From: a virus | IMG/VR virus record: IMGVR_UViG_3300046694_000296 | Coordinates: 124,001-188,000 of that record | Direction: 5' to 3' (one strand) | DNA length: 64,000 nucleotides | In this document: in pieces, positions 2,386 through 49,791 of the stretch | How positions within the stretch are numbered: the first letter of the stretch is position 1 | Layout of the letters: every line of letters begins with the position of its first letter | Position numbers and translations under genes: made by a program | Notes under the pieces: generated by a model | The model's database searches: none | The model's input: only the letters and a program-made list of their open reading frames with translations | Told to the model about the DNA's origin: nothing

Positions 2386-2415
2386 TTGCCTAGTAAGTAA
2401 CCCGTGACTTACAAT
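2386..2415 (+). promoter_or_regulatory. Operator-promoter for the tail fibre gene
   Basis: Palindrome AAGTAAC-CC-GTGACTT at 2395-2410; its right arm runs into a -10 hexamer TACAAT at 2410-2415. A -35-like TTGCCT lies at 2386-2391, 18 bp upstream. It is one of 23 copies of this element in the window. Confidence 0.75.
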
Positions 2416-7936: not shown

Positions 7937-8481
7937 TCTACGTCCTGCTCACGCTGCTCAACCTCGTGTTCACGGGATTCGCCTACGTGCTGGCGCCGGT
8001 GGTCGCCCTCTTCTGCCGCGCCGACGGTTGGCTGCCCAAGTGGCTTGCGTGGTTCCAGACGTTTGACGCCTCGCTCGATGCGGGCTGGCGCGACGGCTAC
8101 TTCCCGGTGACAGGCACGCCGACCGGGCGAGCACGCTGGTGGCTGCGCACGAAGTGGCTATGGCGCAACCCGGCATACGGCTTTTGCTACTGGGCGATCG
8201 GCATCAACTTCGTGCCGGCCGACTGGGAGATCGTCAGCTTCGTGCGGCACGACGACGGCACATGCGACTTCCACGCGCGCACGAAGGACGGCCGCTACTT
8301 CAACCTGATGGCCGCGACGGGCACGAAGCTCGGCTGGAAGGCATGGAACTACTTCGACGGGCTCGATGAGGCCGGACAACCCAAGTGGAAGACATCGCCT
8401 TGGGGCCCGGCCTGGCGCACACCGATCTGCTTCACGCCGGGCAAGGGCTTCTTCGGCGCACTTTCGCGCCTGCGTGGATAA
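7933..8481 (+). CDS. Membrane-anchored phage protein of unknown function
   Basis: 182 residues beginning at ATG 7933, overlapping the previous stop (ATGA). Residues 1-28 (MIYVLLTLLNLVFTGFAYVL) form one strong hydrophobic segment, so it is probably an inner-membrane anchor. The rest is Trp/Tyr-rich (WLAWFQTFDASLD, RWWLRTKWLWRNPAYGF) with a soluble C-terminal half. The WFQT-D-x-x-LD motif and the RNPAYGF motif look conserved in a phage family of unknown role. It ends the tail-side transcription unit just before an operator-promoter. Confidence 0.7.
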   Translation: MIYVLLTLLNLVFTGFAYVLAPVVALFCRADGWLPKWLAWFQTFDASLDAGWRDGYFPVTGTPTGRARWWLRTKWLWRNPAYGFCYWAIGINFVPADWEIVSFVRHDDGTCDFHARTKDGRYFNLMAATGTKLGWKAWNYFDGLDEAGQPKWKTSPWGPAWRTPICFTPGKGFFGALSRLRG

Positions 8482-8503
8482 GTAACGACTGACTCACTAT
8501 AAT
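8480..8503 (+). promoter_or_regulatory. Operator and strong -10 for the 114-residue protein
   Basis: A degenerate operator AAGTAAC-GA-CTGACTC at 8480-8495 is followed directly by CACTATAAT, whose -10 TATAAT lies at 8498-8503. This is the best -10 hexamer in the tail/lysis region. Confidence 0.7.
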
Positions 8504-8901: not shown

Positions 8902-8906
8902 CAGAT

Positions 8907-8922
8907 AAGTAAGCGGTAGCTT
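8907..8922 (+). promoter_or_regulatory. Operator upstream of the lysis cassette
   Basis: AAGTAAG-CG-GTAGCTT, with TTTACAGG directly after it as a weak -10. It is a weaker match to the dispersed palindrome and sits in the only gap before the lysis genes. Confidence 0.55.
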
Positions 8923-8987
8923 TACAGGGGCGGGCCTCGGCTGTTAACATCGCCCCTGTTTACACCATTCCGCGAGAGAGCGACGGC

Positions 8988-11819: not shown

Positions 11820-12518
11820 GTGAACTTACCTCAATGCTTCGGCGACGCGCTCACCCCCGCTGACTGTGAAATGCTGGCCCTGACACGCGTCGATCCCTCG
11901 CTGCGGGCGGCCGAATCGCTGCTCTACAGCCGCAAGTGGTTCGATTTCAGGGCGCTCCACCCCGTGCAAGCCACGTATCGGTTCGCCCACGAATACGCGG
12001 AGAGCGTCAAGCGCGCATATGCCCGCCAGAAAGACATTCGCACGCTCGCGGGCGTGCAGGGTTTCGATGTCGAGAAGCTCTTCGAGAGCCGTGAACTCAG
12101 CGCGATGTGGCGGGCCCGACAGGCGTTCGACGCGATCGGCGTGCGCTATGACTTCGGCCTCGACTTCATCATGAAGCGATTCTGTGAACGCGGCTGGCGC
12201 GTCTTCCCGCGTCCGAACCAGCTGTATGCCGAAGAGGTGATCCTCGATGTGCGCGACGCGTGGCACCGGGAGTGCAAGGCCAAGACGCAACTCGCCCGGC
12301 ACGAGCGGTTCGATGCGCGCAACTACACCGGCCACCCCGACGAGAAAGCCTATCAGGCGTGGCAGGTCGATCAGGTCAAGGCCCGCGGCGGCAACCGCGC
12401 AATGCTGCTCGGACGGCTGCTGCAGGAGAACGTGCTCACCGAAGCGGTGGTGCACGCCGCCTTTGGCGAGGCAATGCTTGCCCAAGCGCGCAAATTCGTA
12501 GTTGCTGCCGATAAGTAA
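11820..12518 (+). CDS. Hypothetical protein
   Basis: 232 residues from a GTG start (MNLPQCFGDALTP), with GAGG about 11 nt upstream. It is mostly alpha-helical, rich in Arg/Ala, with no recognised motif, signal or membrane segment. Upstream is an unusual AT-rich stretch (11738-11800) with TATACT at 11765 and a degenerate half-operator (CTTACTT), probably its promoter. It precedes the replication operon, from which it is separated by an operator. No function is proposed. Confidence 0.7.
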   Translation: MNLPQCFGDALTPADCEMLALTRVDPSLRAAESLLYSRKWFDFRALHPVQATYRFAHEYAESVKRAYARQKDIRTLAGVQGFDVEKLFESRELSAMWRARQAFDAIGVRYDFGLDFIMKRFCERGWRVFPRPNQLYAEEVILDVRDAWHRECKAKTQLARHERFDARNYTGHPDEKAYQAWQVDQVKARGGNRAMLLGRLLQENVLTEAVVHAAFGEAMLAQARKFVVAADK

Positions 12519-12532
12519 TTCGTTACTATACT
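12513..12532 (+). promoter_or_regulatory. Operator-promoter of the replication operon
   Basis: AAGTAAT-TC-GTTACTA at 12513-12528, with TATACT at 12527-12532 overlapping the right arm. It drives the Hfq-like gene, helicase and primase. Confidence 0.8.
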
Positions 12533-14774: not shown

Positions 14775-15868
14775 ACGACGACCTCGGCGAGCTCCTCGAG
14801 CGCGTAGACATGGCTGCATACCTCGACCGCGAGGGCGTCTCCTATCGGGAGACGCACGGACGGTCGGGGGCACAGCTCAACATTCGGGAGTGCCCGCTGT
14901 GCGGCAATAGCGACTGGAAGGTCTACGTCAATGCCGAGTCGGGCGTCGGGAACTGCTTTGCAGGCTCGCACCCCGCAGAGGAGCGGTTCTTCACCAAATA
15001 CAAGTTCATCCGCGCACACCTCGGCTCGCCGGTCGGCGGCAAGGTGGTCGATCACATTCGTGTGTTCGCGCGTGAAATGGGCTGGCGGCCCGCGCGTCGC
15101 GTCTCAGCCAAGGTCGAGAACGCACCGGGCGCATGGGAGCTTCCCGCGCACGTCACGCTGCCGCACAACGGGCAGAACATGCCGTATCTGGAGAATCGCG
15201 GGATCGACGCGGAGCTCGCCGCATATTTTCACCTCGGCTACTGTCCGAACGGGGCGAGCTTCCGATTCTTGTCTGAGCGCGGCTGGGCCACGCAGGACTG
15301 GTCGCGTCGCATCCTGATCCCGGTCTACGACCTCGATGGCAAGATCGCGACCTTCCAAGGGCGCGACGTCACGGGTCGGGCCGAAAAGAAATACCTGTTC
15401 CCGCCGGGCATCGACGGCTCGGGCGTGCACCTCTTCAATGGGCTCAACGTCCGTGACACGAAGCGTATCGTGGTGGGTGAGGGCGCATTCGACGTGGCTG
15501 CGACCAAGATCGCGCTCGATGGCGACGCCGAGCTGCGCGACGTGGTGCCGGTGGGCACGTTCGGCAAACATCTGTCCTCGGGCAGCGAGAACAGCCAGCT
15601 CGCGAAGTTCCAGACGCTCAAGGAGCGCGGTGTCGAAGAGGTGACCTTCCTCTGGGACGGCGAAGTCCAGGCGACCGACGACGCGATCAAGGCGGGCCTG
15701 ATGCTCAAGTCAGTCGGCTTTCGCGTGCGCGTCGCGATGTTGCCGCCGGGCAAGGATCCAAACGAAGTGTCTGCTGACGTGGTGCGCGCCGCCTTCTATC
15801 AGGCGAAGCTGCTCGACCGGAAGTCGGCGCTGGAGATCATGACGCTTCGTCGCAAGCTGAACGGATAA
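14771..15868 (+). CDS. DnaG-type DNA primase
   Basis: 365 residues from GTG 14771 (GTGA overlap with the previous stop). N-terminal zinc-ribbon-like region: ECPLCGNSDWK, then VGNCFAGSH. The middle has an RILIPVYDLDGKIATFQGRDV segment typical of the phage primase core. It ends in a TOPRIM-like domain: RIVVGEGAFDVAAT supplies the catalytic Glu, and VTFLWDGEVQATDDA the acidic pair. Such enzymes make RNA primers for lagging-strand synthesis. It is in one operon with the helicase. An operator-promoter overlaps its stop. Confidence 0.85.
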   Translation: MNDDLGELLERVDMAAYLDREGVSYRETHGRSGAQLNIRECPLCGNSDWKVYVNAESGVGNCFAGSHPAEERFFTKYKFIRAHLGSPVGGKVVDHIRVFAREMGWRPARRVSAKVENAPGAWELPAHVTLPHNGQNMPYLENRGIDAELAAYFHLGYCPNGASFRFLSERGWATQDWSRRILIPVYDLDGKIATFQGRDVTGRAEKKYLFPPGIDGSGVHLFNGLNVRDTKRIVVGEGAFDVAATKIALDGDAELRDVVPVGTFGKHLSSGSENSQLAKFQTLKERGVEEVTFLWDGEVQATDDAIKAGLMLKSVGFRVRVAMLPPGKDPNEVSADVVRAAFYQAKLLDRKSALEIMTLRRKLNG

Positions 15869-15886
15869 GTCACCCGTTACTATACT
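15867..15886 (+). promoter_or_regulatory. Operator-promoter after the primase
   Basis: AAGTCAC-CC-GTTACTA at 15867-15882; TATACT at 15881-15886. It drives the WGR-like gene and probably the ligase cluster. Confidence 0.8.
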
Positions 15887-17057: not shown

Positions 17058-17356
17058 CCAAGACCTACAAGCCGTTCAAGCTGCTGGAGACAGGCGAGAA
17101 GTTCATCGACCTCGACACCGGCGTGCTCTGCATGAAGATCGGCGGCATCGACAACCAAGGTAACGCGATGCACCTGTCGGCCGGCTACGACATCTTCCAT
17201 CGCACGAAGATCGGTGCAGTCGCACTGCAGCCGTTCAAGGCACACGGCCGCGATTATCCGGTCGGCGCGGTGCTCGCATTCGATGAAAAAGAAGCCGTTG
17301 AAATCCCGCCTTTCCTGGATTTCAAGGCGGTCGAACAACTTCAAACACAAGGGTAA
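17054..17356 (+). CDS. Hypothetical protein
   Basis: 100 residues, coupled to the previous gene by ATGA. It is compact, mixed alpha/beta, with one Cys and no motif that I can name (GEKFIDLDTGVLCMKIGGID; DYPVGAVLAFDEKEAVEI). It precedes the ligase in the same run of genes. Confidence 0.65.
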   Translation: MTKTYKPFKLLETGEKFIDLDTGVLCMKIGGIDNQGNAMHLSAGYDIFHRTKIGAVALQPFKAHGRDYPVGAVLAFDEKEAVEIPPFLDFKAVEQLQTQG

Positions 17357-17370
17357 GTAACACATGACTT
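17355..17370 (+). promoter_or_regulatory. Operator-like palindrome over the ligase start codon
   Basis: AAGTAAC-AC-ATGACTT, whose right arm contains the ligase ATG (17364). No -10 hexamer follows within 20 bp. It may be a roadblock-type (stoperator-like) site or a weak match. Confidence 0.5.
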
Positions 17371-18773
17371 CCGCCGTAATGACCAGCTGCCAGGCGTTCA
17401 ACGTGATCGAGAAAATCGCCGCGACCTCCAGCAAGAACGACAAGCAGGCGATGGTGAAGCAGTTCCTCGCCTTCGACACCTTCAAGCGCGTGCTCGTCGC
17501 CGCACTCGACCCACTCGTGACCTACGGCATGCAGCAAGTGCCCGATCGCCTACCCAACACAGCACCGGGCGCCAACACCTTCGAGAACGCTGGAATCTGG
17601 GAGACGCTCGACCAGCTGCGGCTGCGCAATCTCACCGGCAACGCCGCGCGCGACGAAGTGCAGCGCTTGATGACCTTCCTCACGCCCGAGTCGGCCGAGC
17701 TCTTCAAGCGGATCTTGCGCAAGGATCTGCGCGCGGGCTTCTCCGAATCGACCGTCAACAAGGCATGGAAGGGGCTCATCCGCGAGTTCCCCTACATGCG
17801 CTGCGCGCTCCTGAAGGACGCGAAGCTCGACACGTGGACGTGGGAAGCGGGCGTGATCTCGCAGGAGAAGGCCGACGGCATGTTCATGAACATCGACCAC
17901 GAGGAGGGCGGGGTGGTGCGCATGACGAGCCGACAGGGCACGCCGTTTGATGTCGAGACGTTCGGCGTCTTCGCCGACCATGTGCGTGCGATGTTCCCTG
18001 CCGGCACGCAGACGCACGGCGAAATGCTCGTGGTGGTCAACGGCGAAATCGCCCCGCGCGAAATCAGCAACGGTATCCTGAACCGCGTGGCGGCGGGCGG
18101 CCAGTTCTCGCATGCCGAGACACCGCGGTTCTTCGCGTGGGATCAAATCCCGCTGGCCGTGGTCGCGCCGAAGGGCAAATACGAAGTCGGGTATCGCGAG
18201 CGTCTGAAGGCGATGGTCAAAGGCATGACGAACGGCCCGCGTGCACTCGGCATCCAGAGCGCGATGATTCAGGTCATTCCGACGAAGGTGGTCAAGTCGC
18301 TGGAAGAGGCGATGACTCACTATCGCGATCTGCTGGCCCAAGGCAAGGAAGGCACGATCATCAAGAACGGGGCCGCGACGTGGAAGGACGGCACGAGCAA
18401 GGAGCAGATCAAGCTCAAGCTCGAGGTGGACGTCGATTTGAAGGTGATCGCCATTGCGCCGGGCCGTGTGGGCACGAAGAACGAAGGCCGCGCTGGCGCT
18501 TTCACCTGCGAGACGTCCGAGGGCGGGCTGCGCGTCGATGTGACGGTGAAGAACGAGGCGCTACGCGATGAGGTCGATGCCAACCCCGAGAAGTTCATCG
18601 GTGGGATCATTGCAGTGCGCGCGAACGCGGTGATGAAGCCGAGCGAGAGCAACGACCGGCATAGCCTGTTTTTGCCGCGCATGGTCGAAGCAGGGCTTCG
18701 CCTCGACAAGAGCGAGCCGGATACGCTCACGCAAGTCATCGCGCAGTTCGACGCGGCAGTGAAGGGGGCATAA
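17364..18773 (+). CDS. ATP-dependent DNA ligase (T4 gp30-like)
   Basis: 469 residues. The helical N-terminal domain (1-140) includes DLRAGFSESTVNKAW. The nucleotidyltransferase core starts at SQEKADGMFMNI, with Lys169 of motif I (KxDG). Later motifs are HGEMLVV (III-like), EGTIIKN (IV) and IKLKLEVDVDLKVI (V). An OB-fold follows. The length fits T4-type ligases (about 487). It seals nicks in duplex DNA with ATP. An operator-like palindrome covers its start. It lies downstream of primase and helicase, consistent with lagging-strand repair. Confidence 0.9.
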   Translation: MTSAVMTSCQAFNVIEKIAATSSKNDKQAMVKQFLAFDTFKRVLVAALDPLVTYGMQQVPDRLPNTAPGANTFENAGIWETLDQLRLRNLTGNAARDEVQRLMTFLTPESAELFKRILRKDLRAGFSESTVNKAWKGLIREFPYMRCALLKDAKLDTWTWEAGVISQEKADGMFMNIDHEEGGVVRMTSRQGTPFDVETFGVFADHVRAMFPAGTQTHGEMLVVVNGEIAPREISNGILNRVAAGGQFSHAETPRFFAWDQIPLAVVAPKGKYEVGYRERLKAMVKGMTNGPRALGIQSAMIQVIPTKVVKSLEEAMTHYRDLLAQGKEGTIIKNGAATWKDGTSKEQIKLKLEVDVDLKVIAIAPGRVGTKNEGRAGAFTCETSEGGLRVDVTVKNEALRDEVDANPEKFIGGIIAVRANAVMKPSESNDRHSLFLPRMVEAGLRLDKSEPDTLTQVIAQFDAAVKGA

Positions 18774-22087: not shown

Positions 22088-22126
22088 GAATTCGGCGCAT
22101 TAGACCGTAAACTTTGCGCCGCGTCG

Positions 22127-22288
22127 CGCATAGATGGGGGCGCTTGTAACAATCCACAAAGTCCTGTGGATTAGGGCGGTTATCAACAAATAAATGGGGG
22201 CGCGCCAGCGAATAGATGGGGGCGCTCGAACGAATAGCTGGGGGCGGCTGGCGAATAAATGGGGGCGCGTGACGAATAAACAGGGGCG
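22127..22288 (+). repeat. Iteron array, six copies
   Basis: Consensus GCGAATAAATGGGGGCGC. Copies at 22127-22143, 22187-22204, 22208-22225, 22230-22247, 22251-22269 and 22272-22288. The last four are spaced 21-22 bp apart, about two helical turns, so initiators would bind one face. The sixth copy has CAGGGG in place of TGGGGG. Confidence 0.88.
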
Positions 22289-22464: not shown

Positions 22465-22508
22465 CCGCCCCTATTTATTCGCTACGGGGTGCGCCCCCGT
22501 TTATTCGT
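22465..22508 (-). repeat. Two inverted iterons at the far side of oriV
   Basis: Reverse-orientation copies at 22465-22482 (CGCCCCTATTTATTCG core) and 22491-22508 (GCGCCCCCGTTTATTCGT), directly after the stop of the parB-like gene. They could serve handcuffing (copy control) or couple partition-gene readthrough to the origin. Confidence 0.8.
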
Positions 22509-23551: not shown

Positions 23552-23650
23552 CGCAGCCTCGCTGGCTATTGTGATTGCCGCGTAGCGTAATCCAAAGAGG
23601 ACAGTTCCTCAAGTAACTTCTCAAGTGTGGGATGACGTGGCGTAGGTTGC

Positions 23651-23683
23651 TATCTTGATACCAATCTTGATACCAACATACCA
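23651..23683. repeat. 33-bp duplicated TTGATACC element, copy A
   Basis: It contains ATCTTGATACCA twice in tandem (period 13 bp), then an ATACCA core. A second copy of the same length and order is at 53607-53639. Copy A lies upstream of parA. It may be a centromere-like site for the RHH protein, or an operator for another regulator. Confidence 0.7.
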
Positions 23684-23780
23684 ACGGCGTGAGTTGCGTC
23701 GCAACGAACCTAGCGACCTAGCGAACGAGCCAGCAAGCGAGGCAGGGAGGGGCAGGAGAAGGTAGTTCGGTCGATGCCAA

Positions 23781-23847: not shown

Positions 23848-24303
23848 TTACACCTTGTCAGTGCGCTTGCCATATTCCTTCAACACACCGCGGATAGCTG
23901 TGTTGAACTTCGGGTCGTCAAAGTCGAGGTCGGCGGTGCCGGCTTCTTCCAATGCTAGGCGCTCGAACTCTCGTTGCGTGCGGGTGACGAAACGGTCGCC
24001 CAGGATCTCTTCGATCACCTTCCATGCATCCGGCATGTATTCGGTCATCACCATGCGCAAGAGGTTCGCCGGGTCCAGACCTAGCACGATTGCCATTGCG
24101 CGGACCTTGTTGACCGGCAGCTTCGTCTTGCCTTGCCGGAAGAGGGTGACGATGTTTCGGTTGCTGTAGCCGAGCGCCTCGCAGATTTCTGTCTGCGTCT
24201 TGCCGCTCAGGTCGATCACTTGACCGAGGTATTCGGCCACGCTCAGTTGCTTGGCAGGGTGTCGCTTTGCTTTCACTTCCGGTGCTGCTGCCTTTGCATT
24301 CAT
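23848..24303 (-). CDS. XRE-type HTH regulator, candidate immunity repressor
   Basis: 151 residues. Residues about 20-75 form a Cro/CI-type helix-turn-helix (LSVAEYLGQVIDLSGKTQ, then TEICEALGYSNRNIVTLFRQGK, then LPVNKVRAMAIVLG). The remainder is helical and acidic, without a LexA-like protease site (no Ala-Gly and Ser-Lys pair seen). It sits alone on the minus strand between ParA and the start of the rightward early genes. A copy of the dispersed palindrome overlaps its own promoter and others lie just upstream, consistent with autoregulation. That it binds these operators is inference from position. Confidence 0.78.
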   Translation of the reverse strand: MNAKAAAPEVKAKRHPAKQLSVAEYLGQVIDLSGKTQTEICEALGYSNRNIVTLFRQGKTKLPVNKVRAMAIVLGLDPANLLRMVMTEYMPDAWKVIEEILGDRFVTRTQREFERLALEEAGTADLDFDDPKFNTAIRGVLKEYGKRTDKV

Positions 24304-24318
24304 GGTTGCGCCCTCTCT

Positions 24319-24374
24319 ATTGTTAGTAAACAGTAACTCACATATTTGGCGGGAAGATTGGTAACCGCTAACTT
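24319..24374 (-). promoter_or_regulatory. Two operators at the repressor promoter
   Basis: Read on the minus strand: GAGTTAC-TG-TTTACTA at 24339-24324, followed by ACAAT as the -10 end (24323-24319). A second copy, TGGTAAC-CG-CTAACTT (24359-24374, plus strand), lies 19 bp further upstream. Confidence 0.7.
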
Positions 24375-24485
24375 CCCTCGATGCATTCGATTATAGACGT
24401 AAAAATTGCATGCCAAACAGAGATCGAAGCCGAGCGTGGTGGCGATATGCGCTGGCGAAGACGTATCGCGTGCGGTTGCGCACAC

Positions 24486-24509
24486 TACAATATAAGTCAC
24501 AGCTTACGT
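24486..24509 (+). promoter_or_regulatory. Operator and -10 for the first rightward gene
   Basis: -10 TACAAT at 24486-24491, followed by the operator AAGTCAC-AG-CTTACGT at 24494-24509, so bound repressor would cover the initial transcribed region. The 24304-24550 gap therefore carries three operators and divergent promoters and looks like an immunity switch. Confidence 0.7.
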
Positions 24510-24550
24510 AACAGAACGAAAACGTTCAAACCAAACCGAGGAGTAGGAAC

Positions 24551-24790
24551 ATGCTGCAGAACATGACCATCGTGCCCGTCAGCCAAGATCAGGCGATCGT
24601 TATTCTGGCCGAGACGACCGAGACGGGAAGCACGCTGGACGGGGGTTCTGTGCAGACGACCGTCTGCCGACACCCGCTGATTGGCGAGTTGGTCCTCATT
24701 CAGAACGCGATCGACGCCTCCGCCGTGGTGCTCGATCGCGCGCAGGTTCCCGCGCTAAGTGATTGGTTACATCCAAGCGCTGCTCATTGA
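24551..24790 (+). CDS. Hypothetical early protein
   Basis: 79 residues, with GAGGAG 9 nt upstream. It starts MLQNMTIVPVSQDQAIVILAETTETG and has a beta-rich look. No motif is recognised. It is the first gene transcribed rightward from the repressor region, the place where cro-like, anti-repressor or anti-host genes often lie; nothing in the sequence supports a specific choice. Confidence 0.55.
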   Translation: MLQNMTIVPVSQDQAIVILAETTETGSTLDGGSVQTTVCRHPLIGELVLIQNAIDASAVVLDRAQVPALSDWLHPSAAH

Positions 24791-24862
24791 CGCCAAGAAG
24801 CGGTCGGTAGACTTAGGTCAGTCGAATACAACCGTTGTTTTTTCTCAATAGGGGAACCGCCA

Positions 24863-27202: not shown

Positions 27203-27240
27203 GGCGTTTACGCCACGCGGGCAAATCTGCCTGCATAGGA

Positions 27241-27284
27241 TAGTAAGCGGTGACTTGACGCGTCCGTGAGTAACCGCTTACTAT
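27241..27284 (+). promoter_or_regulatory. Promoter with two operators for cobS
   Basis: Operator 1, TAGTAAG-CG-GTGACTT (27241-27256), overlaps a -35 TTGACG (27255-27260). Operator 2, GAGTAAC-CG-CTTACTA (27268-27283), overlaps the -10 TACTAT (27279-27284). Spacing between hexamers is 18 bp. Confidence 0.78.
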
Positions 27285-27339: not shown

Positions 27340-28551
27340 ATGAGCGATACCGGCGACAAGATCACTTGCCAGGAGTGCGGCGCGCTAACCCACGCGATTC
27401 AGCTCCACCTGCCGGATGCCCACCCGGGCATGACTCTCGCCGACTATCAGGCGAAATACCCCGAAGCACCGATCCTCTCCAAGCGCGCTCAAGCTGAACT
27501 CGAACGCCAGCGCGCAGCAAAAGCTGCCGCAGCTGCACCCGTGACCGCCGCGATGGCGGGCGGTGCTGTGCCCGCTAATGTGATCGCGCTGAACCCCGAA
27601 GGCAAGACGACCGCCACGCTGCACGACACGTTCGGCTTGCTCGACGGTCACGGTAAGCCGGTGCCCGCAGCGCTCAATTCGCGCAAGGGTCCGATCGAAA
27701 TCACCGTGTTCGCCTCGCCGCGTGACGCCGATATGGTGCCGGCGATCGACCCCGGCTTCATCTTCGATATCGAAAACCTGCGCAACGCGATCATGGCGCT
27801 CGAACTCCGCAAGAACCTCTACGTGTGGGGTCACGCCGGAACGGGCAAGACGACGCTCATCGAACAGATCATGGCGCGCACCGGGCGGCCGGTGATTCGC
27901 GTGCAGCACTCGATCGGCACCGAAGAGTCGCACGTCCTCGGTCAGTGGGTGGTGCGCGGCGGTCAGACCGAGTTTCAACCGGGCCTGCTCCCGCTCGCGA
28001 TGCGCAACGGCTGGACCTACCTCGCCGACGAATACGACTTCGGTAACCCCGCGGTCCTCGCCGTGTATCAACCGATCCTCGAACCGGGCAAGAGCCTCGT
28101 CATCAAGGACGCACCCGACGAGTGGCGTGTGGTGAAACCGCACGAGAACTTCCGCTTCGTCGCAACGGGCAACACGAACGGTTCCGGTGACGACACGGGC
28201 CTCTATCAAGGCACGCAGATTCAGAACGCCGCGAACTATGACCGTTTCGGCATGGTGCTCGAGGCGACCTACATGCAGCCGGAGCTCGAGTCGGCGATTC
28301 TGGTGCAGCGCAGCCGGATTCAGAAGAAGAACGCCGATCAGCTGGTGGACTTCGCGAACCGCGTGCGCGAAGCCTATAAGAACAAGGAGATCGCGAGCAC
28401 CATCTCGCCGCGATGCCTGATCGACGCGGCCGACATCGGTCTGCGACGCGCGAACTGGCGCTTGGGCGTGACGCTCTCCTTCATCAACAAGCTCTCTGCG
28501 GTGGACCGCGCTGTCGTTGACGGCGTTGCATCGCGAATTCTCGACAAGTAA
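27340..28551 (+). CDS. cobS: CobS/MoxR-type AAA+ ATPase with N-terminal zinc finger
   Basis: 403 residues, with GGAGG upstream. Residues 8-45 (ITCQECGALTHAIQLHLPDAHPGMTLADYQAKYP) are a MucR/Ros-like zinc-finger pattern (C-x2-C ... H-x4-H). The AAA+ core has WGHAGTGKTT (Walker A, 164-171), WTYLADEYDFGNP (Walker B) and FRFVATGNTNGSGDDTG (sensor 1 and the MoxR/CobS insertion). It pairs with the VWA protein upstream as in CobS-CobT or MoxR-VWA modules. It has its own double-operator promoter. Confidence 0.88.
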   Translation: MSDTGDKITCQECGALTHAIQLHLPDAHPGMTLADYQAKYPEAPILSKRAQAELERQRAAKAAAAAPVTAAMAGGAVPANVIALNPEGKTTATLHDTFGLLDGHGKPVPAALNSRKGPIEITVFASPRDADMVPAIDPGFIFDIENLRNAIMALELRKNLYVWGHAGTGKTTLIEQIMARTGRPVIRVQHSIGTEESHVLGQWVVRGGQTEFQPGLLPLAMRNGWTYLADEYDFGNPAVLAVYQPILEPGKSLVIKDAPDEWRVVKPHENFRFVATGNTNGSGDDTGLYQGTQIQNAANYDRFGMVLEATYMQPELESAILVQRSRIQKKNADQLVDFANRVREAYKNKEIASTISPRCLIDAADIGLRRANWRLGVTLSFINKLSAVDRAVVDGVASRILDK

Positions 28552-28575
28552 CCTAGTAAGTAACGGATTACCAAT
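28546..28575 (+). promoter_or_regulatory. Operator overlapping the start of the sigma-like gene
   Basis: AAGTAAC appears at 28546-28552 and again at 28558-28564; the second forms AAGTAAC-GG-ATTACCA (28558-28573), followed by AT. The ATG at 28577 is only a few bases on, so a promoter here would give a nearly leaderless message; the site could instead block read-through from cobS. Confidence 0.6.
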
Positions 28576-28576
28576 C

Positions 28577-29215
28577 ATGCTGCAATCGGCCCAATCGACT
28601 ATCAATACCCGCACCTCGACCCGCTACGAGGACCACACCGGCATGCTGCACAAACTCGCAAAGCGCGGCTGGGGCCGATTGCAGGAGGCAGGGCTCGACG
28701 TGACCTACGAGGACGTCTACCAGCATATGTGCGAGAGCTTCGTGAAGTGCCAGTCCACCTACAAGGTCGACACCGGCTTCTCGTTCTCGGCGTATTACGG
28801 TCGCTCGATCTGGAACAACTTCAACCACTGGGCCGAGCGCCAGATCGAGGAGAAGCATACGCTTGGCCTCGTCTCGGTCGAGAGCCTGTGCGGCAGCGAC
28901 GACGAAGGCGAAACCGACGTGTTCGAATTCATCGAGCAAGAGGACGACGAAGAGACGCCTGAAGACCGGCTCGCCGCGCGTCAGGAGTCGCACCGGCTTG
29001 CCCGCATGCTCTCGGACGATGCCAAGCGCATGGTCGCGCTGCTCGCGCACCAGACCCCGGCGCTCGAACAGTGGATGGACGAGCGCAACGCGCGCATGTT
29101 GAAAAAGACCTACCAAATCAACCTGTGGCTCATTGGCGAGTTCCTGGGTTTCGAGCGCAAGAAGGTGAGTCGCCTGCGCCTGGAGCTGGAGCGCGTCTAC
29201 GGCGTGGAGCTGTGA
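28577..29215 (+). CDS. Sigma-70-like transcription factor
   Basis: 212 residues from ATG 28577 (MLQSAQSTINTRTS); an in-frame GTG at 28517 lies inside cobS. Residues about 35-85 (VTYEDVYQHMCESFVKCQ, then TGFSFSAYYGRSIWNNFNHWAERQ) follow sigma region 2: D/E-D-hydrophobic-Q, then an F-S-x-Y-Y/W-x-x-x-x-I-W promoter-melting helix. An acidic middle (DDEGETDVFEFIEQEDDEETPED) follows. The end (INLWLIGEFLGFERKKVSRLRLELERVYG) is region-4-like HTH. It may direct host RNA polymerase to phage promoters, perhaps the TATACT class. It overlaps the next gene by one base. Confidence 0.7.
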   Translation: MLQSAQSTINTRTSTRYEDHTGMLHKLAKRGWGRLQEAGLDVTYEDVYQHMCESFVKCQSTYKVDTGFSFSAYYGRSIWNNFNHWAERQIEEKHTLGLVSVESLCGSDDEGETDVFEFIEQEDDEETPEDRLAARQESHRLARMLSDDAKRMVALLAHQTPALEQWMDERNARMLKKTYQINLWLIGEFLGFERKKVSRLRLELERVYGVEL

Positions 29216-33212: not shown

Positions 33213-33248
33213 TATACTCGGTAGCGTCTAGTAAGTAACAGGTGACAT
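33213..33248 (+). promoter_or_regulatory. Promoter and operator in front of the HNH gene
   Basis: -10 TATACT at 33213-33218, then an operator AAGTAAC-AG-GTGACAT at 33233-33248 that touches the ATG (33249). Confidence 0.7.
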
Positions 33249-33746
33249 ATGGAACAGTGGAAAGACGTCGTTGGCTACGAAGGGCGCTATCAGGTATCGG
33301 ATCTCGGCAATGTGCGCAGCTTGCCGAATGCAACACGCTCGGGGGTCCGGCTTTTGGCGCTCAACACATTTCGCAACGGCTACAAATACGTGAACCTCTA
33401 TCGAGGCACGTCAAAGAAGGAGAAGTGGCTCGTGCACATGCTGGTCGCGCAGGCATTTATTGGCTCTGCACCGGTCGGGCAAGAAGTTCGGCACCGCGAC
33501 GGCGTGCGCGGGAACTGCGCGCTTACCAACCTATGTTACGGAACGCGAGTAGAGAACCAAGCAGATCGGATCGAGCATGGGACGTCTAATCAAGGCGTTA
33601 GGCATCCCCGCGCCAGGCTCGTAGAGACGCAAGTATTGGAGATTAGAAACTCCAATGAGATCGCTTCAACATTAGCAGCAAAGTATTCAGTTTCAGAGTC
33701 GCTGATCCACCAGATCAAGCGATGCCAAGTATGGCGACACATTTAA
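33249..33746 (+). CDS. HNH homing endonuclease (NUMOD4-HNH)
   Basis: 165 residues. Residues 1-25 (EQWKDVVGYEGRYQVSDLGNVRSL) are a NUMOD4 DNA-binding motif. An HNH core follows (VHMLVAQAFIG, EVRHRDGVRGNCALTNLCYGT, ENQADRIEHGT), then an HTH-like end (EIASTLAAKYSVSESLIHQI). Free-standing enzymes of this type cut intronless alleles and spread the flanking DNA. The 3' half is visibly richer in A/T than its neighbours, a sign of transfer. It sits between dnaE and the SSB region. Its ribosome site is unclear, because the operator abuts the ATG. Confidence 0.88.
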   Translation: MEQWKDVVGYEGRYQVSDLGNVRSLPNATRSGVRLLALNTFRNGYKYVNLYRGTSKKEKWLVHMLVAQAFIGSAPVGQEVRHRDGVRGNCALTNLCYGTRVENQADRIEHGTSNQGVRHPRARLVETQVLEIRNSNEIASTLAAKYSVSESLIHQIKRCQVWRHI

Positions 33747-34419: not shown

Positions 34420-34449
34420 CAGGATCTTTTAACTTTTGCGTGGTCCGGT

Positions 34450-34469
34450 GAGTCACCCGTTACTATACT
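34450..34469 (+). promoter_or_regulatory. Operator-promoter of the SSB gene
   Basis: GAGTCAC-CC-GTTACTA (34450-34465), with TATACT at 34464-34469. A further right half-site GTGACTT occurs at 34526-34532, in the leader. Confidence 0.8.
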
Positions 34470-38753: not shown

Positions 38754-39196
38754 TGGCTGAGCTGAAGGTCAAGGAGTGGAAACCGTCACCCTGCGGCAAG
38801 TATCAGTCGGCGCAGGTCAAGAAGGGCCACAACCTCTACGGCGAGATCCGCAAATACACGAACGGCATGAGCATCTACTGGGCCTTCAGGAAGCCCGACG
38901 AGGTGTTCGTGGAGCTTGACGCCTGGGCGATCGACACCGAGACGATCTCCGTGATGAAGAGCCGGCGCGTCACCCACATCGGCATCCTCGTCTCGAACGG
39001 CGACCAATACCTGACGCGCATCGAGACGATGACCGACAAGGACAAAGGTGCGGTCGTCCTCAACTACACCACCCATCGCGGCGCACGCGGCAAGTTCGGC
39101 GCCCGGCAGTGGTATCTGCCGCGCAGCCAGTTCGTGCAGCAACTCGCGCCGCCCGAGTCCACCATCGAGCAGATGAAGATCAAAGGACGAAGATAA
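38753..39196 (+). CDS. Hypothetical protein
   Basis: 147 residues. Mixed alpha/beta with several aromatic strands (GMSIYWAFRKPDEVFVELDAWAID; RQWYLPRSQFVQQL) and a basic end. No motif recognised. Last gene of a four-gene coupled run after recA; an operator overlaps its stop codon. Confidence 0.6.
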   Translation: MAELKVKEWKPSPCGKYQSAQVKKGHNLYGEIRKYTNGMSIYWAFRKPDEVFVELDAWAIDTETISVMKSRRVTHIGILVSNGDQYLTRIETMTDKDKGAVVLNYTTHRGARGKFGARQWYLPRSQFVQQLAPPESTIEQMKIKGRR

Positions 39197-39222
39197 GTAA
39201 GCCGTTACGTGTTTGCTACAAT
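39195..39222 (+). promoter_or_regulatory. Operator and -10 for the SleB gene
   Basis: AAGTAAG-CC-GTTACGT (39195-39210), then -10 TACAAT at 39217-39222. Here the operator sits in the spacer just upstream of the -10. Confidence 0.7.
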
Positions 39223-39252: not shown

Positions 39253-39660
39253 ATGATTCTAGCCACAGCGCTTTTATGCCTGACCATGAATGTTTACTTC
39301 GAGGCCCGCGACCAACCGATTGCCGGGCAATACGCAGTCGCCGCCGTCACCATGAACCGCGCGGCCGACGATCCGAAACAGGTCTGCGATGTGGTGATGC
39401 AGCCGCATCAATTCAGCTGGACCGATAAGCTCCTCCAGCGCGACGAAGTGGGCTGGAAGCTGCGCAAGGCCGGCGTGCCCAAGGACGACTTCGCATGGGC
39501 TATGGCAAGCCGAGTCGCCTTCAACACGCTCAATGGCCACAAGATCGACGCCACGCACGGCGCGACCTACTATCACACGAAGGAAGTGCGCCCCGCGTGG
39601 CGCAAGCAATTCATCCACGCAGTGACGATCGGCGACCACGTTTTTTATCGCGTAACGTAA
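39253..39660 (+). CDS. SleB-like cell wall hydrolase
   Basis: 135 residues. The core MNVYFEARDQPIAGQYAVAAVTMNRA, VCDVVMQPHQFSWT and the closing HGATYYHTKEVRPAWRK plus TIGDHVFYR match the SleB/Hydrolase_2 family of peptidoglycan hydrolases; the Glu of F-E-A-R is the usual catalytic residue. A short hydrophobic N-terminus (MILATALLCLTMN) may be part of the core rather than a signal. It is a second muralytic gene, far from the lysis cassette and under its own operator-promoter. Confidence 0.82.
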   Translation: MILATALLCLTMNVYFEARDQPIAGQYAVAAVTMNRAADDPKQVCDVVMQPHQFSWTDKLLQRDEVGWKLRKAGVPKDDFAWAMASRVAFNTLNGHKIDATHGATYYHTKEVRPAWRKQFIHAVTIGDHVFYRVT

Positions 39661-39678
39661 GCAACGCGTTACTATACT
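39659..39678 (+). promoter_or_regulatory. Operator-promoter for the membrane protein
   Basis: AAGCAAC-GC-GTTACTA (39659-39674), with TATACT at 39673-39678. Downstream CACCTGTAGCGAA also follows the cobS promoter. Confidence 0.78.
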
Positions 39679-40375: not shown

Positions 40376-41443
40376 ATGCAGCCATATGGGCTTCTGAGCG
40401 ACACACACCTGCACGAATGGAGCGCGTTTGCGCAGACCGGCGACGATCTGGTCAACACCCGCCTCAAGACCATCCAAGACGAGTTCTACCGCTGCGCCGA
40501 CGAGACGAAGAAGGCGGGCGGCGACACCGTGTATCACGGCGGTGATCTGTTTCATGTGCGCGGGTCGGTTACGCCGCCCGTGCTGAATACGACGCTCGCA
40601 ATGTTCGCGCGTATCTACCGCGAGCTTGGCGTGAAGTTTCGCCTGCTCCCGGGCAATCACGACCTGACACACAAGCACAGCAACGCAGTTGGCAATGCGG
40701 TCGAAGCGATGCGCAGCGATTGGGTGGAGGTCGGCCACGACGTGCAGATCCACGAGGACCACAACGTTGTGATGGTGCCCTGGATCGAGCGTGTCGAAGA
40801 CCTGAAGGCAAAGCTCGTCGAAATCCGCGACGACATCGGCAGCATCTCCCCTGGCTCGCTCAGCAACTCCGACCTCATCATCCATGCGCCGATCGACGGC
40901 GTGATCGCAGGTCTGCCCGACCACGGCCTGACCGGGGCGTGGCTCGCGGAGCTCGGCTTCAAGCGTGTCTTCTCGGGCCACTACCACGCGCACAAGGAAA
41001 TCGTGCCCGGCAAGGTGTGGTCGATCGGTGCCTCGACACATCAAACATGGGGCGATACGGGCACGAAGGCGGGCTTCCTCATCGTCGGCGAGAACGATGT
41101 CAAGTGGCACTGCTCGCGGGCGCCGCACTTTGTGGACATCGAAGCGGGCATGGACCCGAGCGAGGTGGCGCTGCGCTGCGACGGAAATTACGTCCGCGTC
41201 AAAGTCAGCAACGCCAAGCCGAGCGAGGTCACTGCGATCCGTGACGCGCTCACGAAGCACGGCGCGCTCGGGGTGAGCGTCAATGTCGTGAAGACGCCGA
41301 CCACGGGCCGCGCATCGACGAGCACAGTGAAAGCGGGCGCATCGCTTGAGGTGCAGGTGACGGATTACGTGAAGGCCGGCAGCTTCGAGCATGCCGATTT
41401 GGTTGCGCAGGGCGCAATCGCAGTTCTCGCGGAGGCAGTGTAA
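40376..41443 (+). CDS. sbcD: SbcD/gp47-like nuclease subunit
   Basis: 355 residues from ATG 40376, with GAGGGAAA upstream. Metallophosphoesterase motifs occur in order: LLSDTHLHEW (D-x-H), YHGGDLFHVRG (GD), LLPGNHDLTH (GNHD), LIIHAPIDG (H) and VFSGHYHAHKEI (GHxH). The C-terminal part is a capping or partner-binding region. With SbcC it forms the Mre11-Rad50-type complex (T4 gp47-gp46) that resects DNA ends for recombination. It is directly adjacent to sbcC, with no gap. Confidence 0.9.
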   Translation: MQPYGLLSDTHLHEWSAFAQTGDDLVNTRLKTIQDEFYRCADETKKAGGDTVYHGGDLFHVRGSVTPPVLNTTLAMFARIYRELGVKFRLLPGNHDLTHKHSNAVGNAVEAMRSDWVEVGHDVQIHEDHNVVMVPWIERVEDLKAKLVEIRDDIGSISPGSLSNSDLIIHAPIDGVIAGLPDHGLTGAWLAELGFKRVFSGHYHAHKEIVPGKVWSIGASTHQTWGDTGTKAGFLIVGENDVKWHCSRAPHFVDIEAGMDPSEVALRCDGNYVRVKVSNAKPSEVTAIRDALTKHGALGVSVNVVKTPTTGRASTSTVKAGASLEVQVTDYVKAGSFEHADLVAQGAIAVLAEAV

Positions 41444-43405
41444 ATGGAGATTCTTAAACTACGAGCGGTCAACTTCCTGACGCTCGGTGACTCGGGCGAC
41501 CTGCTGCTCAAGGACCGCGGTTTGGTCCTGATTCAAGGCGTCAACAACGACGACCCGTCCGCGATCTCGAACGGTGCGGGCAAGAGCTCCATCGCCGACG
41601 CGCTGTGCTGGGCGCTTTACGGCACCACCGCACGCGAAGAGTCGGGCGATTCCGTCATCAACAAGAAGGCGAAGAAGGGCACCTACGTGTCGGTGATCCT
41701 GCAAGACGGCGAGACGGTTTACGACATTCGCCGCCACCGCAAGGACAAGCAGTTCAAGAACGCGACCACGATCACGCGCTGGAACCCGGCCGCCGAGTAT
41801 GAGAACGGTGCGCAGGGCGAGCGCATCGAGAAGGGCACCGAGAAGGAGATCCAGCTGCAGATCAATGAGATCGTCGGCTGCAACTACGACGTGTTCAAGT
41901 CGGCCATCTACGCCGGCCAGGAGGATATGCCCGACCTGCCGAAGATGACCGACAAGCCGCTCAAGATGCTCATCGAGAAGGCGTCGGGCATCGAACGACT
42001 GGAGTCGGCCTACACGATTGCGAACCGTAAGCACGACGAGGCAAAGGCGGCGGTCGAATCGGTCAACACGAAGATCGCGCTGCTGGAGAACCAGATCGTC
42101 AACTGGAAAGTGTCGCTCGCGAACGCCGAGGTCAAGCACAAGGAGTTCGAGGACAACCGCCCGGTCACGCAGCAATACTTCCTGAAGGAAGCTGAGACGA
42201 TCGCCGCGTGTCTGAAAGACAACTTCGCGAAGTTCCAGGCGGTCGGCGAGGCTGCACTGATCGAGGAGCGCGACAAGCTGCAAGCGATCCTCGCAGATCA
42301 CAGCAAGTTCACGACCGAAGCACGCGCGCTGCATGGCGTCGCGGTGCAGGCCGAATCAAGCCTCGCTGCGTGGAACCGCAGCTATGAAATGCAGCGGGCC
42401 GACATGTTGCGCGCGGTGGAAGCCGTGAAGAATGCCCCCGCAGCGATGGCGAAGCCCTGCACCGAATGTGGCAAGCCGCATACCGCCGAAGAGCTGGACG
42501 AGTTCGTCGCACACCAGACCAAGCGCGCGAAGGAGTTGGCAGCGCAGGTAGCGACGGTTCAGGCGACGGTGACCGAGCATCAGAACGACCACGCCGCGAA
42601 GCTGCGCGCGTATGAGGATTTCCTGAAGACGATTCCCGACGTGTCGGCTACGAGCACGCGGCTCGCCGAGGTCAACAAGAGCCTCGCCTACGCGGCCGCC
42701 CTGCGCAGCGCCGTGCAGCGCGACAAGCAGAACTACGACCGCATGAAGGAAGAGGCGGCGAAGGCGCTCACGACCGTCAACCCGCACCAGTCCGCGATCG
42801 ACTTGGGCCGGGAGAACGTGGGCAAGTGCGAGCAGGCGATCGACAAGCTCAAGGCTGACGCGGCCGAGCTCATCAAGGCGGTCGAAGTCGCGGCGAGCGT
42901 CGCGAAGGTGTTCAGCCCCGGTGGCGTGCGTGCGCAGATCCTCGATACGGTCACGCCGTTCCTGAACGATCGCACCAGCGACTACCTGTCGGCGCTCTCC
43001 GACGGGAACATCAGCGCCGTGTGGTCGACACTGAGCACGACCGCGAAGGGCGAGCTCCGCGAGAAATTCAACATCGAGGTCGAGAACGCCACCGGTGCTG
43101 AGTCGTTCGGTGGTCTGTCGGGCGGGGAAAAGCGCAAGGTCAGGCTCGCGACGATGCTCGCGCTGCAAGACTTGGTGGCCTCCCGCGCGACCAAGCCGAT
43201 CAACCTGTGGCTCGGCGACGAGATTGACGATGCGCTCGACGCAGCGGGCCTCGAACGGCTCATGACCGTGCTGGAGCAGAAGGCGCGCGAGAAGGGAACC
43301 GTGCTGATTATCAGCCACGAAAGCCTCGCCGATTGGGTGGATCAGGTCTGCACCGTCACGAAGGAAGGCGGGCAATCGACCGTGACCGGAGCGCTCTGCG
43401 CATGA
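41444..43405 (+). CDS. sbcC: SbcC/gp46-like ATPase subunit
   Basis: 653 residues. N-terminal ABC half: GLVLIQGVNNDDPSAISNGAGKSS, a Walker A with an insertion like that of T4 gp46, and YAGQEDMPDLPKM (Q-loop). A central coiled-coil carries a zinc-hook-like CTEC (339-342) in KPCTECGKPH. The C-terminal half has FGGLSGGEKRKVRLA (signature), LWLGDEIDDALD (Walker B) and IISHESLADW (switch His). It is the Rad50-like partner of SbcD. Short coiled-coil compared with bacterial SbcC (about 1000), as usual for phages. Confidence 0.9.
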   Translation: MEILKLRAVNFLTLGDSGDLLLKDRGLVLIQGVNNDDPSAISNGAGKSSIADALCWALYGTTAREESGDSVINKKAKKGTYVSVILQDGETVYDIRRHRKDKQFKNATTITRWNPAAEYENGAQGERIEKGTEKEIQLQINEIVGCNYDVFKSAIYAGQEDMPDLPKMTDKPLKMLIEKASGIERLESAYTIANRKHDEAKAAVESVNTKIALLENQIVNWKVSLANAEVKHKEFEDNRPVTQQYFLKEAETIAACLKDNFAKFQAVGEAALIEERDKLQAILADHSKFTTEARALHGVAVQAESSLAAWNRSYEMQRADMLRAVEAVKNAPAAMAKPCTECGKPHTAEELDEFVAHQTKRAKELAAQVATVQATVTEHQNDHAAKLRAYEDFLKTIPDVSATSTRLAEVNKSLAYAAALRSAVQRDKQNYDRMKEEAAKALTTVNPHQSAIDLGRENVGKCEQAIDKLKADAAELIKAVEVAASVAKVFSPGGVRAQILDTVTPFLNDRTSDYLSALSDGNISAVWSTLSTTAKGELREKFNIEVENATGAESFGGLSGGEKRKVRLATMLALQDLVASRATKPINLWLGDEIDDALDAAGLERLMTVLEQKAREKGTVLIISHESLADWVDQVCTVTKEGGQSTVTGALCA

Positions 43406-44521: not shown

Positions 44522-44596
44522 TATACTGAAAAGGGAAGAGGTCGCAAGGGCGACTTATTTTTTGGCTTTGCTGTAGAGTAACCGCTGACTTACAAT
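44522..44596 (+). promoter_or_regulatory. Two promoters before nrdA, one with operator
   Basis: Upstream: TATACT at 44522-44527 without a palindrome. Downstream: operator GAGTAAC-CG-CTGACTT (44576-44591) fused to -10 TACAAT (44591-44596). The pair could give one constitutive and one repressible start for nrdA. Confidence 0.65.
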
Positions 44597-48196: not shown

Positions 48197-48211
48197 TTCG
48201 CCGTAACGTAT

Positions 48212-48257
48212 AAGTCACGCGTTACTATACTGTCACCTAACGCCCGGGCAACCGGGC
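48212..48257 (+). promoter_or_regulatory. Operator-promoter with 5' leader hairpin
   Basis: AAGTCAC-GC-GTTACTA (48212-48227), TATACT at 48226-48231. The expected start (about 48238) lies just before GCCCGG-GCAA-CCGGGC (48242-48257), so the message would begin with a stable GNRA hairpin. Confidence 0.78.
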
Positions 48258-49711: not shown

Positions 49712-49755
49712 CGGTAACGGGTTGCCTCACTATACTGATAAGTAACCCGTTACAC
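49712..49755 (+). promoter_or_regulatory. Promoter flanked by two operators
   Basis: A weak copy CGGTAAC-GG-GTTGCCT (49712-49727), -10 TATACT (49731-49736), then a strong copy AAGTAAC-CC-GTTACAC (49740-49755) starting 4 bp after the -10. Confidence 0.75.
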
Positions 49756-49791
49756 ACGGTTAAAACGAAACCTCTACAGGAGCAACACCTC

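Follow-up and report, generated by a model that had tools for sequence, protein, structure and literature searches.

Dispersed palindromic operators and a candidate master repressor in a superfamily of large phage-plasmids

Is the minus-strand helix-turn-helix (HTH) gene of this phage DNA part of a local immunity switch, in which a repressor controls itself and the first early gene from three operator copies, as an earlier note proposed, or do these sites belong to something larger? The window analyzed here is the whole 64-kb stretch, which runs from 124001 to 188000 in a virus record of 215,656 bp. The record consists of two ~107-kb phage genomes that are ~80% identical, A (1-108902) and B (108903-215656), the latter holding the window. 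The two genomes join at an identical 156-bp stretch common to both, 127 bp of which is repeated at the record ends. In another contig of 105 kb, which is almost identical to B, the end of B runs straight into its start with 100% identity over 3 kb. Given the shared stretch and this self-closed contig, the assembly probably fused two phages that occurred together, and the 215-kb record is best seen as such a chimera. The finding is unaffected by this, and it gave us a second genome for comparison.

The putative repressor gene, its operators and its neighborhood

The gene (24303-23848, minus strand) encodes a protein of 151 aa of the XRE/lambda-repressor type, in agreement with its first description, with the HTH at residues ~22-89, a helical C-terminal part and no S24 domain. 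The protein matches PHROG transcriptional regulators (E=2.5e-7), and its match to HTH_3 (E=0.0027) is under the curated Pfam cut-off. The AlphaFold2 model has a five-helix HTH at residues 22-89 (pLDDT ~85-92), the DNA-binding domain typical of XRE/lambda-repressor-like proteins, and a C-terminal part that is helical and poorly resolved. Foldseek matched this model to the HTH domains of P22 c2 (TM-score 0.78 by target length), lambda CI, DdrO, ImmR, and Stl. The earlier note saw no LexA-type autocleavage site, and this was borne out: we found no S24 peptidase domain in the protein or in the whole record, which places the protein outside the class of LexA/CI-type self-cleaving repressors, defined by a C-terminal S24 domain. 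The record has no M78 (ImmA/IrrE) or Bro-N proteins, and the 64-kb window has no CTGTN8ACAG box. The whole-chain Foldseek matches to Stl and DdrO had an rmsd of 11-14 and were not counted as a sign that induction works as in these proteins. A profile search of the genome contigs with the alignment of the A and B repressors returned no relative, and an alignment of nine diverse repressor homologues had no stretch conserved enough for scanning.

All three operator copies are present, within a few bp of where they had been placed. O1 (24323..24340, TTAGTAAACAGTAACTCA, 15.8 bits) precedes the start codon of the repressor gene by ~20 bp, O2 (24358..24375, TTGGTAACCGCTAACTTC, 13.4 bits) is 35 bp from O1, and O3 (24493..24510, TAAGTCACAGCTTACGTA, 19.0 bits) is located at the divergent rightward promoter, with a small early gene (24551..24790, plus strand, 79 aa) under it. 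To obtain these scores, we excluded 24280-24800 and trained the palindromic matrix on all other parts of the window. A weak operator-like site (24756..24773, 11.8 bits) is found upstream of the CobT gene. In genome A the three operators are at 41111, 41146, and 41281, and their spacing (35 and 170 bp) is thus identical in the two genomes. O1 and O2 are poorer matches to the matrix than most copies, which is acceptable for autoregulation and falls short of proof.

The cluster had been described as the densest in the window, which is correct for a triple, although there is a tighter pair at 27240/27267. Because of this pair, and because any three of 24 sites placed at random would come within 170 bp of one another with P=0.04, density is by itself weak evidence; the strong evidence for the three-site cluster is its conservation. 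The proposal that the repressor controls itself and the divergent early gene is strongly supported by this conserved layout and by homologues at the same locus with operators of the same architecture. Further support comes from the absence of the sites from two related phages without the gene and from the expression of the E. coli homologue in a lysogen (see below). As in temperate-phage repressors, the operators lie at the repressor's own promoter and at the divergent early one, and this arrangement is conserved in Cupriavidus. The divergent position is occupied by a small ORF in the relatives inspected, with sequences that are barely alike across lineages, and the 79-aa protein of the window has no Pfam or PHROG match. 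From its position only, one could speculate that this gene is a candidate antirepressor or Cro-like partner.

The description of the repressor as a lone minus-strand gene did not hold. It heads a minus-strand block with a ParA/MipZ ATPase (23551-22880) directly behind it, a ParB-like ORF of 144 aa (22943-22509), iteron-like repeats, and, at the end, a RepA_C/TrfA-type initiator (22087-21113). The iteron-like repeats (22126-22268 and 22466-22507; consensus AATARATGGGGGCG) have a period of ~21-22 bp as well as inverted copies, and this region upstream of the initiator is likely to be the plasmid replication origin. Upstream of parA, TTGATACCAA repeats (23647-23684) form a candidate partition site or operator; a second, similar copy occurs 30 kb off, at about 53607-53640. 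On the divergent side of the repressor, the 79-aa ORF is followed by CobT, CobS, and DNA polymerase III alpha, and the window also encodes a tail fibre, a helicase, and a primase. The element is a siphophage-like phage-plasmid of ~107 kb: it carries the RepA_C, ParA, CobT, CobS, and DnaE genes of the SSU5/RHEph10-related superfamily, in synteny with named relatives. An ORF at 28517-29215 matches phage sigma factors weakly (PHROG E=4.5e-5), and the relatives from Rhizobium and Acinetobacter encode a sigma-70 factor near the corresponding place. Rfam and tRNA scans of the window gave no match, and when 12 kb were compared with phages and plasmids by megablast, only short dnaE matches came up.

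Predicted operators across the genome

The operator consensus is an 18-bp dyad, TAAGTMACNNGTKACTTA (TAAGTMAC-NN-GTKACTTA), derived by manual inspection and then turned into a palindromic weight matrix. At a threshold of at least 12 bits, the matrix finds 27 positions in the 64-kb window, compared with a mean of 0.23 in dinucleotide shuffles of the whole 64 kb. Genome A, which was unused in matrix training, has 38-39 sites, compared with ~1.3 expected per 120 kb, and genome B has 43 at a lower threshold. We thus count ~24 copies within the window, and some 35-40 for each phage genome, which places the set among distributed-operator systems of the P1 C1 or L5 type, defined by about 20 or more repressor sites dispersed at transcription units. 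Considering these counts and the scores from the matrix trained without the region, O1-O3 are real and are part of the ~24-site set. Hence, the three-site switch of the earlier note is supported, but its scope was understated, since the sites belong to a genome-wide operator regulon. The sites are under purifying selection: among 36 syntenic pairs of A and B, identity is 88% within the 18 bp and 96% in the half-site core, far above that of the flanks (45-69%).

The copies are spread over the window. Those at 12512..12529 (23.7 bits), 15866..15883 (24.0 bits), 39658..39675 (23.0 bits), 48211..48228 (23.8 bits), and 55249..55266 (23.3 bits) overlap a TATACT, as does the one upstream of the SSB gene (34449..34466, 21.9 bits), and three others lie next to a TATACT (49739..49756, 24.0 bits; 52560..52577, 23.6 bits; 57608..57625, 22.5 bits). 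The pair mentioned above is found between the CobT and CobS genes (27240..27257, 18.1 bits; 27267..27284, 22.3 bits), one copy is downstream of dnaE (33232..33249, 23.6 bits), and one is upstream of the ribonucleotide reductase gene (44575..44592, 21.2 bits). Further copies occur at 2394..2411 (TAAGTAACCCGTGACTTA, 26.6 bits), 8479..8496 (21.8 bits), 8906..8923 (19.0 bits), 17354..17371 (19.1 bits), 28557..28574 (21.7 bits), and 39194..39211 (17.5 bits). Outside the window, at record position ~200922, an operator stands directly upstream of a GC-rich, terminator-like hairpin, CCCGGGCGC-TAATC-GCGCCCGG, and genome A has an operator at the matching place (91097).

Across each genome, -10-like hexamers are concentrated near the sites (29 vs 1.9 expected in B, 34 vs 2.7 expected in A), at two preferred offsets where they overlap or abut the palindrome. 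Some sites have no nearby -10-like element. In the annotated genome of the related Rhizobium phage, N1_10, intergenic DNA makes up 8.5% of the stretch but holds 34 of the 36 sites, and nearly all of them are shortly upstream of a start codon. A repressor covering promoters would be placed in this way; for an activator, one would expect the distance upstream to vary less. The repressor might in addition stop elongation at promoterless sites, in the manner of stoperators, which would extend our main reading without excluding it. Many sites do lie in short gaps between co-directional late genes, with a few inside coding sequences, and the missing -10-like elements fit this extension. However, stoperators of the L5 type are asymmetric and point along the direction of transcription (PMC9283540, PMC6550527), unlike the palindromes found here, and many of our sites overlap -10-like sequences, which is enough for promoter repression. 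We thus regard such a block of elongation as rather unlikely.

Relatives with and without the gene

Repressor homologues occur at the matching locus, together with the small ORF, CobT, CobS, and DnaE, in the Rhizobium phages N1_10, V1VFA-S, X66, and B1VFA, in E. coli Cyrano, in Klebsiella pJN2-26, in Acinetobacter pABTJ2, and in a Cupriavidus metallidurans plasmid. A collection of plasmids contains homologues in 896 records. Unbiased dyad counts reveal an over-represented palindrome in most of these genomes. N1_10 has 36 sites in 100 kb. To compare lineages, we refined the motifs within one 22-bp frame for all, starting from the core that they share, a procedure that favours similarity; in this frame the half-sites share T-M-A-G-T-M-A, and differ mainly at the two central positions. 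These are CN in A and B, AT in N1_10, GT-like in V1VFA-S and the enterobacterial phages, GY in Cupriavidus, and GC in Acinetobacter. In each lineage whose best-matching copies were inspected, one of the sites precedes the repressor gene by no more than about 150 bp. The distances between repressors correlate with those between operators over 8 lineages (Mantel r=0.68, p=0.0016), in part because of shared descent. Ten related operator motifs have been paired with repressor sequences.

The closest named relative that we found is the XRE regulator of the 106-kb plasmid of Cupriavidus metallidurans ZM16 (NZ_CP090528), with 35% identity over 94%. It shares the order XRE-MipZ/ParA-ParB-like-TrfA on one side and divergent small ORF-CobT-CobS on the other. 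The three sites are also there, with the 35-bp spacing of O1 and O2 and the divergent site kept, but the palindrome is now TCAGTCAGN-NCTGACTGA. A retained order of this kind, with TrfA, and the position of the XRE gene at the head of the ParA/ParB-like/RepA block would suit a protein that mainly regulates copy number or partition, with the genome-wide palindromes bound by another regulator. Yet partition and replication have repeats of their own, the TTGATACCAA and iteron-like sequences described above (23647-23684; 22126-22268 and 22466-22507). Moreover, the homologue is away from ParA in the Rhizobium and enterobacterial relatives, and adjoins an integrase in Cyrano, and the operators still follow it. 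We therefore rejected a pure plasmid-maintenance role as very improbable.

Phages without the gene provide another comparison. In Pseudomonas phage nickie and Stenotrophomonas phage BUCTxx99 the CobT-CobS-DnaE modules are related but the locus has no repressor gene, and six operator matrices detected zero sites in 50 kb of each. Salmonella phage SSU5 (NC_018843) has kept ~16 sites in 50 kb, and its repressor gene is absent from the expected locus (42596-42761); SSU5 did not appear among the hits when the phage collection was searched with the Cyrano repressor. Sites without the gene are the pattern expected of a derivative that has recently lost its repressor, and SSU5, usually cited as a type phage-plasmid, may be a virulent derivative. 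The textbook parallel is mycobacteriophage D29, a deletion derivative with leftover sites.

These phages also bear on whether the palindromes are instead the sites of a phage activator or promoter-recognition factor, such as a sigma-70-like protein, with the XRE protein acting as an autoregulated local regulator only. Most transcription units are indeed preceded by sites, and the weakly sigma-like protein at 28517-29215, as well as the sigma-70 factor nearby in the Rhizobium relatives, would be candidates for such a factor. Nevertheless, the position of the sites, overlapping or adjoining the -10 with two different offsets, is unlike that of an activator site, and their palindromic sequence is unlike a sigma promoter. 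Phages of the SSU5 type have sites and no annotated sigma factor at that locus, and the sites are missing from the two related phages that lack the XRE gene. On the grounds of the two offsets, the palindromes, and the phages lacking both gene and sites, we rejected this very improbable reading.

The homologue in Cyrano, an SSU5-like phage-plasmid of E. coli LF82, is the putative repressor CYRAN_45. It is 37% identical over the HTH, its locus is likewise beside a small ORF and CobT-CobS-DnaE, it shares the operator architecture of the present system, and it is expressed in the lysogen. In contrast with the window, the operator center and outer bases differ, the neighbor is an integrase and not ParA/RepA, and there is one promoter site instead of two. 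CYRAN_45 is transcribed 10-fold above the prophage median in LF82, and production of Cyrano goes up 39-fold with ciprofloxacin (PMC9928086). We found no operator analysis of CYRAN_45 in the open-access papers searched.

A proposed mode of action and its known counterparts

The sites, their conservation, and their family-wide co-occurrence with the gene are what lead us to infer binding, dimerization, repression, and immunity, and to see the 151-aa protein as very likely the master lysogeny and immunity repressor of a large phage-plasmid superfamily. A dimer would presumably bind the 18-bp palindrome through the N-terminal lambda-repressor-type HTH and directly block promoters at the ~35-40 sites, most of which are just upstream of genes and over -10-like elements. 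Early, replication, and late transcription units would be shut off in the lysogen at many promoters, synthesis of the repressor itself would be tuned through O1 and O2, and the divergent small gene would be silenced through O3. The ParA, ParB-like, and RepA genes would keep the prophage as a plasmid, and the lysogen would be immune to superinfection by phages bearing matching operators. We put the probability of this reading, in which a dimeric repressor silences tens of promoters, regulates itself, blocks the divergent gene, and maintains plasmid lysogeny and immunity, at roughly 0.9.

Known systems offer several counterparts. The HTH fold, the palindromic operators, and the divergent promoter layout are shared with lambda CI and P22 c2, but the present protein has no S24 cleavage domain and its operators are tens of dispersed sites instead of two clusters. 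The C1 repressor of P1 is autoregulated and is not known to undergo LexA-type cleavage. P1 is likewise a phage-plasmid with one repressor and many dispersed operators, 22 per genome; these are asymmetric 17-mers (PMC8546580), whereas we find about 35-40 palindromes of 18 bp per genome and an XRE-type HTH protein. The stoperators of L5 and Bxb1 are also found genome-wide, in promoters and short gene gaps. Repressors of the L5 type act as monomers, each with two DNA-binding domains, on >20 asymmetric, direction-oriented 13-bp sites (PMC9283540), and in Cluster A mycobacteriophages the operator motifs drift together with the repressor (PMC6550527). By comparison, the sites here are palindromic, which sets them apart from L5-type stoperators, and one HTH is predicted per chain. 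Very likely, then, the present system works like those of P1 C1 and L5, with palindromic sites and a protein free of an autocleavage domain; the likeness that we claim is one of working only. Distributed operators are already known from P1 and L5, and the palindromic form described here is an added counterpart.

A broader possibility, which we find somewhat doubtful and advance tentatively, is that one repressor family with a slowly drifting palindromic code governs lysogeny and immunity throughout a superfamily of ~105-120-kb phage-plasmids. The hosts would be alpha-, beta-, and gammaproteobacteria, and clinical Klebsiella, E. coli, and Acinetobacter would harbor many of these elements, with the dimer silencing both initiation and elongation at tens of sites. 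If this were true, induction would need a route other than cleavage, possibly involving the small divergent gene. Relatives of the phage-plasmids SSU5, RHEph10, and pABTJ2 are widespread, yet the open-access papers searched gave no operator set or immunity rule for them. With a readable operator code, one can predict mutual exclusion among phage-plasmids, tell which isolates are virulent derivatives (such as SSU5), and name the genes that the lysogen keeps silent. The paired motifs and repressors are also useful to study how a repressor and its dozens of sites drift jointly. Finally, besides its TAAGTA-type operators, Cyrano (OV696614) contains a second, unrelated genome-wide palindrome, AAACAANTTGTTT, with 18 sites in 100 kb, which marks a second regulon in SSU5-type phage-plasmids, and thus another regulator exists, at least in this element.
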